From NCBI GenBank assembly GCA_002102555.1, contig MCFL01000161.1, positions 1 to 55,002 of the forward strand: a stretch of 55,002 nt of DNA, given 5' to 3'. The notes beneath the pieces were generated by a model. It was not told the origin of the DNA. It worked only from the letters and a program-made list of their open reading frames with translations, and searched no databases. The stretch's first letter is position 1; each line of letters starts with the position of its first letter. This document shows, in pieces, positions 16,227-47,110 of this stretch. The stretch comes from Catenaria anguillulae PL171. Taxonomy: Eukaryota; Blastocladiomycota; Blastocladiomycetes; Blastocladiales; Catenariaceae. The position numbers and the translations under genes are program-made.

Positions 16227-16567
16227 GAGTTGGTGGAGCATAGTCAGGATTTGTAGCTGATATGTATACGTAAATAGTACAGGTAACAATGGGCTTCCCT
16301 TGGTTTCGTTTTCAACTCAGTCGCGCTTGTTCAGCACGAACCAAGTCTACAAGCTTGGTGAGAGCACCTTGTCCGCAACTGCTGCCGCGCGTCTGCAAGG
16401 GATTCAGCGCTTCGAGGTCGGGTGGCTTGCCTTCTCACGTCACCTCAGAATGAATCGCCTTCATGGGAATACGAGAACGCTGCAAATTGCTGCGAACAAT
16501 GAGCACGATGACTTTTTTTTGTTTGTGACATCCAAGACACCCATGCACGTTCAAGAAAACATCTTGC
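16227..16567. other. Intergenic between convergent MED14 and oligopeptidase genes
   Basis: About 340 bp between two 3' ends. No coding sequence, repeat or RNA gene recognised; it should hold both 3' untranslated regions and poly(A) signals. Confidence 0.6.
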
Positions 16568-19500
16568 TTACAACCAAGTCAACCACTGATACAACAATCC
16601 AGACCTCCTGTCTCCCCGCTGGCCAGTCTGCTTGTATGCATGGTGGTTCCTTTCTGCAACTGCCGCGGGTACCCTGGAAGACCGCTTCGTACCAGCTGTT
16701 CCGCGTGCTTCGTCATCCAACTGACCATGAGATTGAAGCGGATCCAACAACGGAATAGTAAGCGGCGTTCGATACGGGCTCTGCTCCAAACTGTCCAGCT
16801 GCTGCATTCTTTCTTGAAGCTGATACCATGGGTCTTGAACGCGCATGGCGGCTGATGGCTGCGGAGGCAACGGCGGTGGGAGTGGGCGCGTTGACGCGCC
16901 GAGCGTGTGTATAAGGAACGCATACTCGAGGGCAAGTTCGTGCAAGTGAGAGTATTGTCCAGAGCTTCCACCGTGCCCACCTTCTTCAAGCTTGAGTACA
17001 ATGAGTGAGTCGCCCAGCTTGTGTTGCCGCAGTTTCGCCGTCGTCTTGAGCAGCTCATGGAACGAGACTCGAGGGTCGTTCAGGCCGCCAATAATCATGA
17101 CATGCGGCATGACACGCTTGGAGATATTGGTGTATGCTGCACATGAAACCTTGATAAGCCTTCGTAATCAATATTGTGCCCGTTTTCAACATCAAAGGTG
17201 AACGTACGGCAATACTCCTTCATAGCCTGGTAAATGACCGGGTCAGCTGGATTTCCCCATTCCTCGTACTCAAATGGCGTCCAAGGCAGCGTTGGGTCCG
17301 ACATGGTGTTGAGGCAATCCAAGAAGGGAACCTCTGTCAAGGCAGTCTTGATCAAATGCGGGACTGTGTTGATGGCATTGCCAATGATAAGCCCACCGGC
17401 GCTGCGACCATAAATGGCAAGCAGTTCGGGCGAGGTGAAGTTCTCTGCGATGAGATAGGAAATGCAAGCGTTGAAGTCTCGAAAGGTATTGACTACACAA
17501 GGGGGGGGGGGGGGAGGGCATGAACTGTCAGCGATGCGCCTATGTACTCTTTCTACTCGACGGGTTAAATCAGGACGAACTCTTGTTCTCTTTCTTTCCG
17601 CCCAGGTACCACCCGGTCGACATTTCGCTACCACCCCTCACGTGCGCAATGCAATAGATCATCCCACGGTCCAGCAATGAAATGCGATGAGGGTTGAAAA
17701 TCGGATTGGTGCAAGTCCCGTAAGCAGCATAGCTATGAAGCAGCAGCGGCCGAGGTTCGCGCTTGCCCCTTGGTCCCATGAGGTCCTTGCGATACACCAT
17801 CGACATGGGAATGGCGGTCCCATCTTCACCAGGCGCAAACATGCGGATCGACTCATACAATGATGTGTCGTACGGCGTCGGCCCACACACACGCTCAGAG
17901 TGCACGACGGTGGACTTGCGGATGGAAGGCGAGTAATCGATCACTTGCTTTGGCTTGATGAGAGTGGTGTAAGTGAACCGAATAGTGTCCGACGCAAAAA
18001 GGGCATGCTTGGAGAGGTCCGCTAATTCCTCTGATATCGTCATTGGAAGCACCGAGTACACACGATCACCGAATGGAACGTAATGATATGTCTTGTGTGT
18101 CGCATCTTGAAGGTCAATGCAACGAATGTTTTGGACACAGTTGCTGCGCTCAAAAACCGCCAAATAGTTGGCCCGCATGACAATCTCCTCAATGAAGACA
18201 AAATCGCGAGGTGGGAGGACAGTTTCGCGCCTGGAGAAGCTGCCCGGGTCGTCGAGCGGGGTGCGGAATATCCAATTGTTGGCTTGGGGCCCCTCATTGG
18301 TGAGAATGTAGAACCACTTTCCGCGGCGTTCGGTCACGTATTGTACGCCCGAGCTGCGAGGAATGACAACAAACGGTTCGGACGTTGGGTCTGCGACATT
18401 GTGAGGCTAGTTAGGTTAACCAGTCCTTTGTAGTCTGTATTGCAAGACAGGTGTGAGGTTCGAGCAACCGCACCGATGTCCACGGGGATACAGCGAGTTT
18501 CCGAGGTGACTTGGGCTGCCGAATTGATAAGGATGAGGCTCGCGTCGGCAGTCTTGGTCAAGGTTCTGACGGAGCAGCATGGATTATGAATCATCAGTGC
18601 TCCGCTTCGCAACATGAGCAACGAGCACGGAACGCACAAGTAAAACATCGGGTCAGTTTCTTCCCACAGCAACACGTCTGGTGAAGGTGATCCGGTCATG
18701 GTGTGTCGCATGACGCGATACGCACGATCTTGCCCGTCAAGGAGAAGGTAGAATCCGTAATCGCCGCAGGTGCTAAACTCCCAATCTTCCCAGCAGTTGT
18801 GAATCCGTGGCGGCAGGATTTTCTTGGTTGCAAGTTCGAGGAACAAGAAGGTGTATTGCTGTATGACGAAAGAAGTACATGGTCAGTGTCCGTCTATGGA
18901 GACGGAGGAACGAGGTGTAAGGGGGGGGGGGGTGCAAACGTGCAAAATACCTCGTCACCTCGCGTGTCAACTCCGATTGCGACCCATCGACCACACGGTG
19001 AATGTCGAAAGCAGCCGACACGGAAACAAGGTGCACCAGAAAATTCGGGGAGCTCGGCCAGCTCATTCTCGTCGAGGTAGACCTCTCGCTCAACCTCACC
19101 AGTTGGAAGCACGCGTTCGCGAACATGTTGACGGTATTCAAGACCGGGCACCTTGGTCGAGTAATAGTCGTATCCGTGCATTTGCGCTTTGGCGGTGGAC
19201 TCGGACTCATCCATGCGTTGCACAAACTCCTTGACGAGAAGCTTTTGCAAGTTCTTGGTCGCACTGGTCGCCAGGTCCGCATACGCATTCTCTTGCTTGA
19301 TGTACTCCATTACGCCAGGGTTCTCTCGATCATGAAGCCATGCAAAGTCATCCACACATTGATCGCCGTGGGAATTCGTCCATACTTTTGGAATGGTTGC
19401 AGCAACGGGCGGGTGGATACCAACGGATGATTCCGAAGGGATTGGGAGAGATGAAGCAATGTGCGACCGTGTCCGCCGCTCGATAAATGTGAGCAAAGGC

Positions 19501-25932: not shown

Positions 25933-27670
25933 TTAGTCTTCCTTTGGGCGCACGCGGATCGAACCAACCCAAGCGCCTGGCGGCTTCCCCGCCGCCGACG
26001 TCTCCTCGGCCAAGACCGGATCAATGTGCACAATCGGCGCCAGTCGCGACCAAATGGGGGCCAACGCCCCTCGTGACTCGCGGTCCTCGGCAGAGTCGCC
26101 GCCAGCCCTTGATGTCGCTGGACTTCCGATACTGTTGAGCTCGGACTTGAATTCGGCTTCGAGCTTGGCCAAATCCCTTGCGTACTTGGCGGAAAACACG
26201 TCAAAGTAGAATGTCGACGCGTTCCAAATCGACACGGAAAGAATGGCAATCAGGAACAGAATGTTGAGAACCATGGATCTTGCCCACAGCACGGTCGGAA
26301 GCACCGTGACCATAGAATAGACGAATTGGAGCATCATGAAGGTAACCAGCCGGTACTGGTCACCGAAAATCCCCATAGCCTTGGCGATCGCCCCATCGTC
26401 CTGCAACAACCAAGTGAACGAGGTGGCGTATCCCAGCTCGTACACTTTAAAGTGCCGGCGGTGCAAAACAAACCAGTAGTACGCCACTTGCCACACGGCA
26501 TAAATGACGGTGGCGCCAACAAGCGCCTCAACCATCCCAAGTTGAATCGGGTCCTTGAGAGGTTCCGTAACGCCCGGTCCTGCATAGTAGGGGCTCGCTG
26601 CTGTGGAATGCCGTGGGTCCAGCCACCGCAAGCAGCTGAGCGTGATTGCGGGCGCAATGTGAATGAAGCAACTTGTCATCTTGTCGAGCGAGTGAAACAC
26701 AAGCGAGTTTCGCCAGGTGACCACGGCCCATGCCAACGGGCCATGCGCGCAGACGTAGAGCACATGGAACAAGCTGCGCGACGACGGGAAGATGTAGACG
26801 AAAGCCAGAATCAAGGCATTGATGAGATAGCAAAAGTCGTTGAGAAAGTAGTGCCAGCGCTTCTTGCGGTAAATGCCCCAGCGAAGCGACAAGAGGACCA
26901 GCGCCTTGAGTGTAAACCAAGTGGGGACCCAGGTGGGGGCCATACCGATGAGAAACGCCGAGAACCAGAGGTTGGTGGCGCCGAGAAAGAATTTGATTTT
27001 ATCAGTTTTGCGAGTGACGAGCGGGTTGCGCAGCTTGGATTCGACAATGTCCCATTGCTGGTTGATCTTGGATACAAGCTTGTCGCGGATCCGTTGCCGG
27101 CGCTGCGGAAATGAAGTTGGCCACCAGGTGAGTGGCCTTGGCCTAGCGTGAGGAACGAGAGCAAACATGAACGCACCTTCCGAGCCTCTTCAGACTGGGA
27201 CAATGGGACTTCCCTGTCAATTCGCTCAATTGCTCGAGAAGCCTTGTCCAGCAACCTGTGCGCCTCCTGGGCCCATTCCGAGCCCAGCAGATCGTAAATG
27301 GATGCTCGGTCGATCGAGTCCACCCAAAAATCAAACTCGATGTCGTAAAGGTCATCGAAATCGGATCCCAGCGAGTCTGTCGGCGATTGTGGGACAGGTG
27401 CCAAAGCGCTGGTGCTGCTGGCCCGCTCTGGGCGAGTATCGACATGAGGAACAGGTACGTGGGTGCGAGGCGGGGACGATAGTGAGTTTGGGCTGTGCCA
27501 GTCACATCAAGGGCAGGCGATCGTTGACCATTTGCGACTGTTTCCTGCGGGTCTGCGGTGACGGCGACAGTGGCGGCCGTCTCTGGAGGCGCCGTTGCGT
27601 TTGCGCGCTGGCTGTCTGCTCGGCGGCGAGCTGGGGCTCATCTTTGGGTGGGTCGTGAGCGGAATGTTCA
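25933..27670 (-). CDS. GPC1: Glycerophosphocholine acyltransferase (GPC1 family)
   Basis: GPC1 acylates glycerophosphocholine to lyso-phosphatidylcholine at the ER membrane. The main exon encodes RRQRIRDKLVSKINQQWD, a positively charged lead, then eight or so hydrophobic segments. It contains the family signature around RKKRWHYFLNDFCYLINALI, with SLDKMTSCFIHIAPAITLS and YELGYATSFTWLLQD further on, and a hydrophilic tail ending VGSIRVRPKED. An upstream exon (MAPVPQSPTDSLGSDFDDLYD ... LSQSEEARK) joins in frame across a GT-AG intron at about 27120-27176. A second possible upstream intron ends in CTCGCCCAG near 27420, and coding-like sequence continues to about 27670, so the true start is uncertain. 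Confidence 0.88.
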
Positions 27671-41369: not shown

Positions 41370-42171
41370 TCACTCAGCGTCAATCGTCTCATCCTCATGG
41401 GATCCATGCGGGTCAAACTCCAACCACCACTTCTTTGCCCACTTGCCAATCTTGACTTGCCCACTTGCGATCTCGTCAGGGCACTTTGTGAGCCTGATAC
41501 CAAAGTGCTCCTTCCACCAAGACAAGACATGACATCGTATTCGCTTGATTGAGTCAATATCGCCCCCATATCAGCCGTTTGCATTGGCCACGCTCGTTCA
41601 TGTACTGAAGCATAGGAACATTGTAGCTCCAGCGGCTAAATACATCTGCTGGAACCGGGCAAATGCTGAGGACCTTCTCCATGAGATGGACATGAATTGG
41701 GTTGGAAAACCAAGACCGTCGCCATCCGAGATCAAGTGGGCAGTCACATACTTCAGGCACGTTGAATCTCCACAACAGCAATGAAGGCCCGTGAAGATTA
41801 CCGATGGCAGTGCGAATCGGAAAGTTGCACATGGATGGAATTGAAGGCCTTGACAAAATATTCCCTTTGAGCCACAGTCAACAACCAGTCAAGCACATTA
41901 ATGCGGGCTTCGACACTTGACACGTGAATGCTGCGTTCGATTTGTGCCACACCGTTAGCCCATCCGGGCTATCCTGTCGGTCGGCGAGCTTCCGGTTGCA
42001 TAGGTACAAATAGTATCCCTCGCCATAGTCTGCCTCGGCCCCAAACCGCCAACTGAACCGGAGCCACCATTTGATGACAGCAACATTGGCACGCTCGCAC
42101 GCTTCCTTGAGAAAGTAGCCCAGATATTAAACCTTGTCTGGATCCATGCTTAACCCTTTAGCAGCCGGGAG

Positions 42172-42189
42172 TTGGACGCGACGGTCCAA
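42172..42189. repeat. 18-bp palindrome, left end of TTAA element
   Basis: TTGGACGCGACGGTCCAA: arms TTGGAC/GTCCAA. It lies 4 bp inside the left terminal repeat. Candidate transposase-binding or structural site. Confidence 0.75.
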
Positions 42190-42648
42190 CCATTTAAAGT
42201 TCGCGTTTTGCGGCTTACAACACGCAATCAGTTTCTTAGCGTCAGGTTTCCTGACCTGTCGATCACCCGCCTCTGAAACTGATCCGGTCGGCCATATCCA
42301 CTTGAGTTCCCTCTCTCACCATCCTTGGACAACAATCCTGAATGAAAATCTGCTCAATGACATGAACATCGCTTCGTTTGCCGGGTTGAGCGGCCGTGGC
42401 CAGCGTGGCCAATGGGGTGGTGCCGGTTGACGCGCGCCGAGTGCGCCCTGGTGCGCGAGCGCCAGAGGGATGTTGATTTTCCTTTTTTTGGTCATTTTGT
42501 GACAATTGCAAGCGATTCAAAAGGGTACTAGATGCTGTACATAGCGTATTCCGGTCAGGACAGAGAGTTTACTTGCTTCGGCTCAAGACGGCTTTTCCTT
42601 TCTGAGGTGATGGACGGACAGCGAAAACACGTCGAGCAGTGAACACGG

Positions 42649-42666
42649 TTGGACCAATCGGTCCAA
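42649..42666. repeat. 18-bp palindrome, centre of TTAA element
   Basis: TTGGACCAATCGGTCCAA: perfect 7-bp arms with a 4-nt spacer, almost exactly at the midpoint of the element. Confidence 0.75.
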
Positions 42667-43107
42667 AACCAAAGAATGGGTCATTTTTGGACCCTGTACA
42701 CACAATACATGATAAACCACCGACACCATCCAGACCAAAAATGTGCGAATTGGGACGGTTGACTGTTTCCCGCTTTCGGCTCGACGATTGGGCAGAAACT
42801 GCCCACACTACGGCAGTTTCACGTCAAAAACTTTCATCTGTTCTTGCTCTTTCAAATCAATTCCCAGCCCCTCCGGACCAATCCAGTTGATGTCAGGGGG
42901 CAATGGGCCAGCAGACTGTCGATGTTGATTAGCGTTTGGGCAGTTTTGGTTTTTTTCCGTTTTTTATTGCGCAAAACTGGCTTGATTGAATCCGTGTTAC
43001 CATCAGTAAATTGACGAAGCTACCCCTCAAGAATTGTAGTACAGACTGTCAAGGGTCTAGCATTTGTGTATGGGGAGAAAGGAATTGCGAAAGATCGCGA
43101 AAACAGG

Positions 43108-43125
43108 TTGGACCGCGCGGTCCAA
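43108..43125. repeat. 18-bp palindrome, right end of TTAA element
   Basis: TTGGACCGCGCGGTCCAA: a perfect 18-bp palindrome directly adjoining the right 14-bp terminal repeat. Confidence 0.8.
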
Positions 43126-44532
43126 CGGCTGCTAAAGGGTTAACATGTAATTGGAAAACATGACGTCCATATAGACACGGTATTGGTTAGCTGGATCGTC
43201 AAGGTAAGACGACAATTCCGGTCCATACACCCATTCCAGAATGTGAACGTGCCCGCTAATGCTGGCGGACCGGAAGTTGTCCCACAATTGATACGACTTG
43301 AATTCGTACCCGTTCGCATGAGCCAATCCACAAGGTCCAGCCGCCCGCCTTCGCAAGCGCCTTCGATCGGGTCACAATCCCGATGACTTGGTATTTCGCA
43401 ACGCGGGCCGTCTTGGCGAGGTTTAGCAGAGAGATGCTTGTGAATCCATTCCAAGGTTTCCAAACACGCATTCTTTGTCGCCAGAGACATGAGCTGACGA
43501 CGAACCCACCAGGTATCCCTTGGAAAACAACCATTTCAGTGCCCTCAAATCGCCATTCCTGCTCGCTGCTTTGGAAGCCAGCCAATACTGGTCTTCAAAT
43601 ACACGGATTCCGAGGCGGGCAATCCAATCCACAGCCGACTTTTGACAGCATATTCCAACACGTGCTCCCGCTCACCCAGCTTCAACGCATTGAGCTGCTG
43701 CACGCATTCAGGATGCTTTTTGCTCCACTGCAACACGAACCCATGCTTGCCCTTGAGCGCCCCAGACACAACCTTGGCAAGTGGAGGCATTTGAATCATG
43801 CCCGCAGAGGACTTTGAAGTCCACCACTCGATCACATGGACATGCCCTTGCTTGGCAACGCGCCCCAACATGCGTGACGAAATCGCATTGTTCGCCTGGC
43901 AAATGCTCGAGACGCCAGACCAACACATCCGTGTGTCCCGCGATACTCGCGTCCCGCATGCAAAATGGCAAGGAGATAGTCTCCAAGTGCGAGAATCCTC
44001 GTAACCCCCACCAGTTCAAGACACGCACATGATTGTGCGCACAAGCGGCCTCCAAGGAACTCGTGTTATCATGAGGACCCCTGCGGGAGATCCAGTCAAG
44101 CATCTATCCAGACTCGTCAATCCACCAATCAAGCACGTCCAGGTTGCCCACCTGCATGGCAATCGCCAGCGTTGGTGTGTTGTTAAGTGGTCGCCCGCCA
44201 GGCTGCCAACTCCACCTCATCATGAATTTGAGCAAACCGACATCCCCGACTTTGGTCGCCGTATTGAGATGCACATGCAGCAAATGTATGAGTGCGGCCG
44301 TGGTGGCCAGCGGAGCAACCGCGCGTGAAAGAACGTTGAGTGGCTGGCAAAATGGCGGCAGGTTTCCAGCTCGAAGTGACGGCCGCTTGTGCCACTGTGA
44401 GGGCGAGCAGCGCGTCATGATTTTAACGCACAGGACCGGCACGGCGGCGGCGGGTGGGGTCGCGGGCGCGGTGGCAGCTGTTAGAATGGCTGACGGTATT
44501 GCATGAAATGTAAACATGTGGTTACATGGCAT

Positions 44533-45006
44533 GACTCGCGGTGCTCATTCTGTGGCTGGATTGATTTGTTGACGCGTGTGACTAGACTCAATCTCAAACG
44601 CTCTCATGTATTTACTTGCGGACGGTGCAGGCTCAACGACTAATGCCGACATAACTACAATTCAAAGATGATCTCGAGAGTGAGACAGATCTGTATACGC
44701 TTCCGCTCACTGTTTTCCCAAGACGGGTTCACGCCCGTCTTCCACAGGTACACGGGTGAAGGAGTCAAGGGAGCAAAAGCAGAAATGCTTGTGCAGCTAT
44801 GGCCGAGGGTACATGTTTATGTGCGAAGGACAATGGTGATGAAAGTAATATACAAAATTGTGTCATCAATAAAGGAAACAGACGGATAGCGACAATACTG
44901 CTATAGTGTGGAACAGAGTCAATGTGGGATTGTAAACGCCCACGCTCTATGGATCAAGCAACTCCTCCTCGGCGACGTCATAGTACTATGGGTGCACACA
45001 CGGCTT
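44533..45006. other. Intergenic between ankyrin-type pseudogene and GPCR 3
   Basis: About 470 bp, AT-richer than the flanking genes; no gene, repeat or RNA recognised. A direct duplication of ACGGGTTCACGCCCGT type (small hairpin) is visible near 44722. Confidence 0.5.
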
Positions 45007-46445
45007 TTACTTTGTCTGTGCCCTCGGTCGCGGCTGTTGAGGCAGCGGTGGCAGCACGCCTCTTGGCACTGCAGCAGGGCGTGGTGGAATCCCGACCTGA
45101 CCCGCTTCCACTGAATCTCGCGCCACTGAATCAATTGCGTCGTATGCAGGAGGTACAATCGGATCGACGATGGGTGCGCCGAGGTACGCCTGCGACAGCT
45201 GAATGGGTCCAAGGTGCGGTGGCGGATCGGGCAAGTGGATGAGTTGGACTTGCGATGGACTTGCGCCAGGGAAGACGGCCGATGAGTCGGTTGGTGCAAC
45301 GGGAAGAATTGCGGTACCTCGTCCATATCGACCGCCGCTCCCGTCATTTCCGCTTGGGGGAGTCTGCGGGCTGTGAATGAAGGCAAATCCAGGTATTGGC
45401 GAAGCGAGATCCGACCGGCCGGCACCAGTGCCGATTCTTGACCGGTCGCTCGTCCCGCCACTTGTACTTCCACCATCGGTACTGCTCCCGAATTGGTCCA
45501 TGCCAAAGCAGGAGATGAACTGGTTGCCAAAGTAAGCGATGGCAGCAAACAGACCGACCGATGGGAATGTGAGCGCGTGCAACAGAAAGTACACAAAACG
45601 TTCCTCGCCCATGAAGATGACAGCTACGCGGTTGATGGTGAGACCAATATAGGTGAGGAAGAATGCGAGGAGGTACAGCGCCGTCTTGACGGTGAGTCGC
45701 AAGCGGGCTTTTAGATGTTGATGATATGCAAGGTGGTTGGTACGAGAACGGGCAAGGCTGTTGAGTCGGCACTCCACAATCAGCACAATGAAAACAAAAA
45801 CGATGCGGCACTGGAAGTCATGGACACGCACTCTTCGGAATTCAACGCCTTGCGCACCGTCTTTATCGCTGAATGATACACCAAGAAAGTAAAGACAAAC
45901 AAGGCCCATAATGGGACAAGCAGTGCAAACACCCGCGTCGATTGAAATGACCGCGCGACCCAGCAAAACATGCCCGCGTTCCCATAGACCGAGTTTGGCG
46001 TATGAAGCACAATGGGCCGAACCATGGGCGCGACGGCCAAGAATGAGGGAACACCCCAGGCAACGCAATGGTAAATGTACTCGCGCTTGCGTATGCGTCC
46101 GAGCGACAATTGGCGCACAATGGCCAGGTACACATTGAGCCCCATGAATGCTGACCAGAGCGCTTGCGAGAAAAAGGCGAAGGTCATTGTCGCGGCTTGA
46201 GCGAGGCAAAGTGGATTCGGGTCCTCGTCTTCGGTGAGTGGAACCTGAGAGCGCCCGAGAAGCATGAGGGGTAATGGAACGGCCGCAGAAATGGTGAACC
46301 AAAGAACAATTCGGCTGGGTGCGTTGCGCATCTTTGACCACTTTCGCCAAATGTCGCTTGCCATGATCCCAAGGCAGATCAAGGATATTGAGGCTGTGAT
46401 GCGCACAACTGCCTCAAGTGTGTCGAGCTCGGGTGGTGAAAGCAT
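45007..46445 (-). CDS. cAMP-receptor-like seven-transmembrane GPCR, paralogue 3
   Basis: Start MLSPPELDTLEAVVRITASI aligns with the starts of paralogues 1 and 2, so the upstream in-frame codons are not used. Landmarks: APSRIVLWFTISAAVPLPLM with LLGRSQVP, TMTFAFFSQALWSAFMGLNV, YLAIVRQLSLGRI, CVAWGVPSFLAVAPMV, NAGMFCWVARSF, VFALLVPLWALFVFTFLVY, then after an intron VKTALYLLAFFLTYIGLTIN, RVAVIFMGEERF and LHALTFPSVGLFAAIAYFGN. The cytoplasmic tail (about 165 residues) is rich in Ser, Gly and Pro and ends PQQPRPRAQTK. No frame error is seen before the intron. It lies about 10 kb from the tandem pair, in the same orientation, separated by RNA14, repeat B and the ankyrin pseudogene. Confidence 0.85.
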
Positions 46446-46668
46446 GTTGGGCAGCGCAAGGAACGTGGATGGAGTCTTGACAAGCAAGTACATGGAACAG
46501 ACCCCAGAGTGTCCTGTCCAGGGAAACTCGCGAGCCTTCGGAGGACTGGTTGGAATCAAGGCAGGCTACAGCGCGATTTGCTCAATGTGTTCAGACTGGA
46601 TATTCATTGACCGTTTTCATTGAGCCGGTATCCATATTCAGAGAGCAGCAAACCGGAATCCAGAGAAC
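46446..46668. promoter_or_regulatory. Upstream region of GPCR paralogue 3
   Basis: Short spacer between the GPCR 3 start and a possible divergent small gene. No motif named. Confidence 0.4.
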
Positions 46669-47110
46669 ATGAGGGTCATGGTATCGCCTGCAAAGGTTGC
46701 GAGCTTGAGCAGCAAGTTGCTAGAGGACAATGGAGGATTTGCTGGGGAAAAGTCCGTTGCACCGTCATGCTTTGTCTTCATTTTGCTTGGCCGGCAATCC
46801 CGCCAATAATCCCGCCATCAGCGGATAAATCTGTTGTCACGATTCGTATCGTCCGGTTCCTCTGTGTGGCGGCGGCTGTGGTGGGAATTCGGAAGCAAAA
46901 GTCATTGGCGGCCTTTGATTTCTTTCGCGTGTGGATGAATCAAGTGCAAGCTCAATTTGACCGTCTCACCCATCGTGATTCAGCCAATCACGAATCACGC
47001 GGTGATGCCACGGCCATTTACTCCACCAGATCGCCGAGCACTTGGCCTTCATTCGTCGCAAAGCTGCAAGCATGGACGATTTAACTCGCAGCAACCGCGA
47101 ACACAGCTGA
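46669..47110 (+). CDS. Possible small gene, unrecognised
   Basis: Two coding-like pieces point the same way: a start MRVMVSPAKVASLSSKLLED with NGGFAGEKSVAPS, and an end with FDFFRVWMNQVQAQFDRLTH, then (after one missing base near 47027) HQIAEHLAFIRRKAASMDDL and TRSNREHS before TGA at 47108. The pieces are in different frames; an intron between about 46760 and 46880 would be needed. The end is amphipathic and charged. I do not recognise a family, and the span is too short to exclude chance. It would be divergent from GPCR 3. Confidence 0.3.

Follow-up and report, generated by a model that had tools for sequence, protein, structure and literature searches.

The window, which is the whole 55,002-nucleotide stretch analysed here from Catenaria anguillulae PL171, represents contig C70 of a 41-Mb genome in 457 contigs. 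Its minus strand carries a decayed ankyrin-type gene (41584-44583, the outer limits of the tblastn matches of a paralogue on contig C140), and this gene holds a 986-bp element lying between two copies of TTAA at 42150-43143. Elsewhere in the window, a protein encoded at 25933-27189 (minus strand) identifies the host as a blastocladiomycete: among named sequences, its nearest matches are in Blastocladiella emersonii (60%), Blastocladiella britannica (58%) and Allomyces (56-61%). At 857-1771 lies a frame whose end resembles, by eye, a non-LTR reverse transcriptase in its C-terminal part.

The element is characterized by a regular layout. A first TTAA (42150-42153) is followed by a 14-bp terminal inverted repeat, CCCTTTAGCAGCCG (42154-42167, plus strand; the transposase 3' side), by 958 bp of internal DNA, by the identical repeat in inverted orientation (43126-43139, minus strand; the transposase 5' side) and by a second TTAA (43140-43143). 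The window contains three copies of the 18-bp palindrome TTGGAC-N6-GTCCAA, all inside the element: at 42172-42189 (bp 19-36 from the left tip), at 43108-43125 (bp 15-32 from the right tip) and internally at 42649-42666 (bp 474-491 from the right tip). An Rfam search of 42000-43300 gave no match at gathering score. Coordinates and sequence confirm what the preliminary description had reported, namely TTAA on both sides, identical 14-bp inverted ends and a length of 986 bp; as it also stated, the window copy contains no transposase. The longest stop-free run inside 42150-43143 is 101 codons.

This arrangement is not a product of chance. The 39 TTAA sites in the window form 67 pairs spaced 100-2500 bp apart, and only the pair at 42150 and 43140 has inverted ends that match at 14 of 14 positions, with the runner-up reaching 8 of 14; base composition predicts about 3e-7 such pairs. 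The low number of TTAA sites initially resembled a special avoidance of this motif, with 39 observed against 141 expected from base composition, but a second-order model also gives 39.

The ankyrin-type gene offers a further view of the insertion. Its C140 paralogue has a 712-aa open frame with an Ank_4 match (E 6e-7), whereas the alignment of the window gene to it is fragmented, spread over at least two frames and interrupted by in-frame stops; two pieces of the window gene gave no Pfam match. When the element and one TTAA are removed, the minus strand reads continuously through FSNYM-L-SMDPDKV, with one TAA before YLGYFLKEACERANVAVIKWWLRF. The joint is therefore in frame, as proposed earlier, but the gene is also broken elsewhere. 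Given this decay, a single in-frame joint says little about the insertion, as one joint in three would be in frame by chance. That the frame runs on after removal could also be expected if the 986 bp were an ordinary intron or segment of the gene with an accidental likeness to an element. This explanation is exceedingly improbable: it conflicts with the chance figure of about 3e-7 and is refuted by dispersed copies, in which the same DNA lies at unrelated places with TTAA at its ends. The paralogues on C140 and C135, moreover, match a flanking piece only and not the 986 bp, so the preliminary description passes its own test of looking for that DNA as ordinary paralogue sequence.

Searches of the genome for further copies with the same ends and TTAA, which had been suggested as a check, recovered a family of related insertions. 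The exact 18-bp combination of TTAA and terminal repeat occurs 8 times in 41 Mb, in TTAA-bearing copies, against 0 occurrences of a reversed control. Once up to 3 mismatches are allowed, the control (55 sites) outnumbers the end itself (20 sites); approximate matches to the end are therefore uninformative by themselves, and only exact or near-exact ones carry weight. The copies on C28, C70 and C187 have the exact 18 bp at both ends, whereas those on C373 and C413 have them on the left only, their right ends differing by one base. Six copies (C70, C28, C187, C401, C223 and C112) have TTAA on both sides; C373 and C413 have TTAA on the left and TTCA on the right.

These family members differ in length and in their distance from the window copy. 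The C28 copy (45814-46808) is 96% identical to it, and the C187 copy (16377-17165) is 96-98% identical, with an internal deletion that makes it about 200 bp shorter. The copies at C413:129675-132572 and C373:9374-12271 are 98% identical to the window copy, and each is interrupted at the same place by another element, about 1.9 kb long. More distant are a 1183-bp copy on C401 (73622-74804), TTAA-flanked and about 80% identical at its ends, which start CCCTTT, with one end CCCCTT; a 4093-bp copy on C223 (843790-847882, including both TTAA), also about 80% identical at its ends and starting CCCTTT; and a 1305-bp, TTAA-flanked copy with unequal ends on C112 (819355-820659), 65% identical to C70 over 406 columns. 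C380 and C132 each appear to hold part of a further relative of the C112 copy, and isolated ends or fragments of the family lie on C334, C29, C433, C79 and C403. To judge from these alignments, this is a small but genuine family, in which shortened copies that retain both ends accompany a longer relative.

The C373 and C413 copies are probably alleles or duplicates, because they are 99.8% alike and share the 30 bases to their left, although only 148 bases match when the left 300 are compared without gaps. The 1.9-kb element nested in them (C373, L048:2413-4307, and the matching L049 stretch of C413) has 149-bp inverted ends that are 97% complementary, a 7-bp duplication (TCGGTCC) and, as its longest listed stop-free frame, 181 aa, features that would perhaps fit a Mutator-like element.

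Related sites that lack the insertion are consistent with duplication of the target. The stretch C379:168946-169846, 98% identical to the sequence on either side of the C187 copy, has one TTAA where C187 has two. One T is missing beside this TTAA, so an uninserted site and an excised one are indistinguishable there. About 120 bp beyond the site, C379 contains about 480 bp that are absent from C187, after which the two are again 99% alike; the two stretches thus differ by the 785-bp element and by this additional segment. The C28 copy lies in a dispersed repeat (L051:1000-3700). All five other copies of this repeat that were compared lack the insert; in place of the two TTAA of C28 they have a single GTAA (four copies) or ATAA (one copy). 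On either side of the C28 element, in opposite orientation, lies a sequence of about 150 bp that recurs at many places. The C187/C379 and C28/repeat cases both show a 4-bp duplication. Empty counterparts of the window site and of the C401 site were not found in the genome assembly. The C187/C379 difference may represent a heterozygous or polymorphic insertion, and the presence of the element on only one of two contigs with flanks 98-99% alike suggests fairly recent movement.

The copy on C223 provides the link to a transposase. A 344-aa frame within it matches the Pfam profile DDE_Tnp_1_7 (E 3.2e-67), and its only PDB matches are the piggyBat transposase 9c0f (E 2e-29) and the piggyBac transposase 6x67 (E 8e-14). 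The three catalytic aspartates are present, with gaps of 81 and 118 residues between them. The first gap equals the figure that PMC10813416 gives for clade E and Pokey, and the second exceeds the range of 98-113 given there. A likely 62-bp intron is followed by a downstream frame with paired cysteines, and this cysteine-rich C-terminal piece gave no match to a Pfam transposon zinc finger. By comparison with P0001, an open relative of 436 aa with 95% identity, the N-terminal part of C223 lies in shifted frames; there is therefore no clearly working copy in this assembly. A longer relative with a DDD transposase, of the kind that the preliminary description proposed to look for, is thus present, with the same kind of ends but with a broken frame and at 74-80% identity; the C223 copy is a cousin of the window copy. 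A transposase associated with the window subfamily's own type of palindrome was not found in the genome assembly. The transposase profile search returned 286 proteins; among the 120 listed, 13 carry an organism name, and all of these are animals.

DDE_Tnp_1_7 matches occur on seven of the genome's contigs searched. The six besides C223 (C323, C406, C16, C405, C453 and C116) were considered as parents and rejected, because no TTAA pair with inverted ends lies in the 6.5-8 kb around each match and none of these contigs is among those with the TTGGAC-N6-GTCCAA palindrome. We read these loci as old remnants or domesticated genes.

Alignment with C223 also suggests how the window copy arose. Under loose scoring, the minus strand of the window matches C223 in two blocks. 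Positions 42451-43143 correspond to C223 1-703 in the sense direction (74% over 709 columns; for the inner part, none of 500 shuffles reached the score), and positions 42150-42366 correspond to C223 3870-4093 (70% over 227 columns, E 4e-27). Between them, about 84 bp at the joint (42367-42450) have no convincing C223 match. The larger block takes in a relic transposase start codon (42493-42495, minus strand), read from 42495 within an ATGACCA context common to C223. These two matches, the start codon included, show that the window copy is an internal deletion of a C223-like element, of which about 693 bp remain from the 5' end and about 217 bp from the 3' end. Two earlier readings of the alignment were dropped. 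Foreign DNA in the middle of the element was an effect of default scoring, which stopped at base 523, while looser scoring extends the C223 similarity to base 693. A common 5' breakpoint at 515-523 in three lineages likewise disappears for C70 and C28 under looser scoring, and is still visible for C401 and C112.

Taken together, we consider 42150-43143 to be a non-autonomous, internally deleted DNA transposon of the piggyBac superfamily, with a probability of roughly 0.95. The same classification in the preliminary description gains support from the sibling copies, the longer relative with its DDD transposase and the two sets of related empty sites. TTAA stands on both sides of six copies, with TTCA at the right of C373 and C413, and the target site is single in C379 (TTAA) and in the five empty C28-repeat copies (GTAA or ATAA); the short inverted ends start with CCC on both sides; and a DDE_Tnp_1_7 domain with three aspartates is present in C223, with none in the window copy. 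The window copy also has the form of a MITE or internal-deletion derivative, in that both ends of an autonomous-type relative are kept and the transposase is absent. A TTAA duplication alone is not specific to piggyBac, and similar ends might belong to another TTAA-targeting superfamily such as Sola3. This alternative is very improbable, since the longer relative has ends of the same kind and they enclose a piggyBac transposase, the surroundings of a C223-type start codon survive in the window copy, and the ends begin with CCCTT. PMC10813416 describes CCCTT as the most conserved piggyBac end motif.

The pattern TTGGAC-N6-GTCCAA has 25 sites in the 41-Mb genome against 1 for the reversed pattern; 19 are in family members, 1 is in a further TTAA plus CCCTT end on C29, and 5 lie elsewhere (C1, C46, C198, C290 and C452). 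The C1 site, the only one of these five that was read, has a TTAA about 100 bp away and no CCCTT end. In C70, C28, C373, C413, C223 and C401, the third palindrome begins at bp 473-475, counted from the right tip, some sites having a changed outer base. Its distance upstream of the transposase start codon is 154-162 bp, and in the window copy 154 bp separate it from the relic codon.

When the arms, as first defined from the window copy, are followed through other copies, arms and centres behave differently. Between C70 and C223, 36 of 36 arm positions agree but only 2 of 18 in the centres, against 438 of 550 in the rest (P 4e-4 for arms, P 2e-9 for centres), while the TTAA and terminal repeat, at 28 of 36, are no better conserved than the rest. 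C70 and C401 agree at 34/36 arm, 0/18 centre and 383/509 other positions. C401 and C223 agree at 34/36, 12/18 and 414/519, respectively, with no excess of change in the centre. Within the C70 subfamily, C70 and C28 agree at 24/24, 10/12 and 885/921; in this count the internal site coincides with the boundary separating the two halves, and the centre excess is not significant. At both the right and the internal site, the arm-adjacent pair reads C..G in C70 and C28 but G..C in C223 and C401, whereas C373 and C413 have T..G at the internal site; in the left palindrome all five C70-type copies have G..G, and C401 has A..C. On this comparative evidence, palindromes at three fixed places, with conserved arms and a centre that appears to be replaced between subfamilies, are what is new here.

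By analogy with piggyBac and piggyBat, the palindromes are predicted binding sites of the transposase C-terminal domain. They might instead form hairpins or be recognized by a host protein, an explanation that we consider rather unlikely. The C187 copy lacks the third palindrome and the C112 copy has only one, yet both are TTAA-flanked, and two of the three between-subfamily comparisons show a centre that has diverged faster than the background, as hairpin loops could. Against this, the subfamilies agree in the arms and in the position and spacing of the palindromes, and that position resembles the one of known C-terminal-domain sites of piggyBac and piggyBat. For transposase binding sites, a more speculative and equally doubtful extension is that the centres form a changing address code, such that each subfamily's transposase would read its own ends only, with the third palindrome acting as an operator that limits the element's own gene. 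The paired palindromes provide comparison material for the co-change of transposon ends and DNA-binding domain.

In the mechanism that we propose, the transposase of a full-length relative would bind the inverted ends together with the neighbouring 18-bp palindromes, excise the element and join it to a TTAA, which would become duplicated. The window copy has lost the transposase gene from between its retained 5' and 3' portions, and may have been mobilized by a transposase of this lineage. Hairpin cut-and-paste chemistry may likewise be expected for this family from the piggyBac and piggyBat systems.

By the features tested, the element is of a well-known kind, piggyBac, with a C-terminal domain that is unproved. 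The suggestion that few piggyBac-like elements are known from early-diverging fungi proves too strong, as PMC7928374 records piggyBac in all sequenced Mucorales. PMC3864998 names piggyBac-1_Mcir of Mucor and describes a piggyBac-like element in Tuber, and PMC8773270 reports one in Umbilicaria. These elements from Mucorales, Tuber and Umbilicaria share the superfamily assignment and fungal hosts with the family described here; unlike it, the Tuber element is given 52-bp ends and TA rather than TTAA duplications (PMC3864998). Judged by title, none of the papers listed in searches of open-licence literature deals with piggyBac in Blastocladiomycota, and the passages searched in PMC6416283, PMC3627910 and PMC10085805 contain the word piggyBac and report no such element from this group. 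It is plausible that the family is new to databases. Our analysis adds to Blastocladiomycota a piggyBac family whose structure is well defined and which comes with a longer relative bearing a transposase, deletion derivatives and related empty sites.

Among characterized systems, piggyBac of Trichoplusia ni (6x67/6x68) resembles this family in its TTAA target and DDD transposase. It also shares the CCC ends; its palindrome differs in sequence from TTGGAC-N6-GTCCAA. The family here has, in addition, a third palindrome about 474 bp inside, and the window copy is without a transposase. In both systems, near-tip palindromes occur at the two ends with unequal spacing, here at bp 15-32 and 19-36; PMC7351741 places the palindromic repeat at bp 17-33 on the piggyBac left end, bound by two C-terminal domains. 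The closest solved transposase to that of C223 is piggyBat of Myotis lucifugus (9c0f, E 2e-29). According to PMC11707139, the piggyBat left end has a palindrome at bp 19-30, bound by two C-terminal domains, and further ones inside, as in this family, whereas its right end has no such palindrome; the family described here carries one at both ends.
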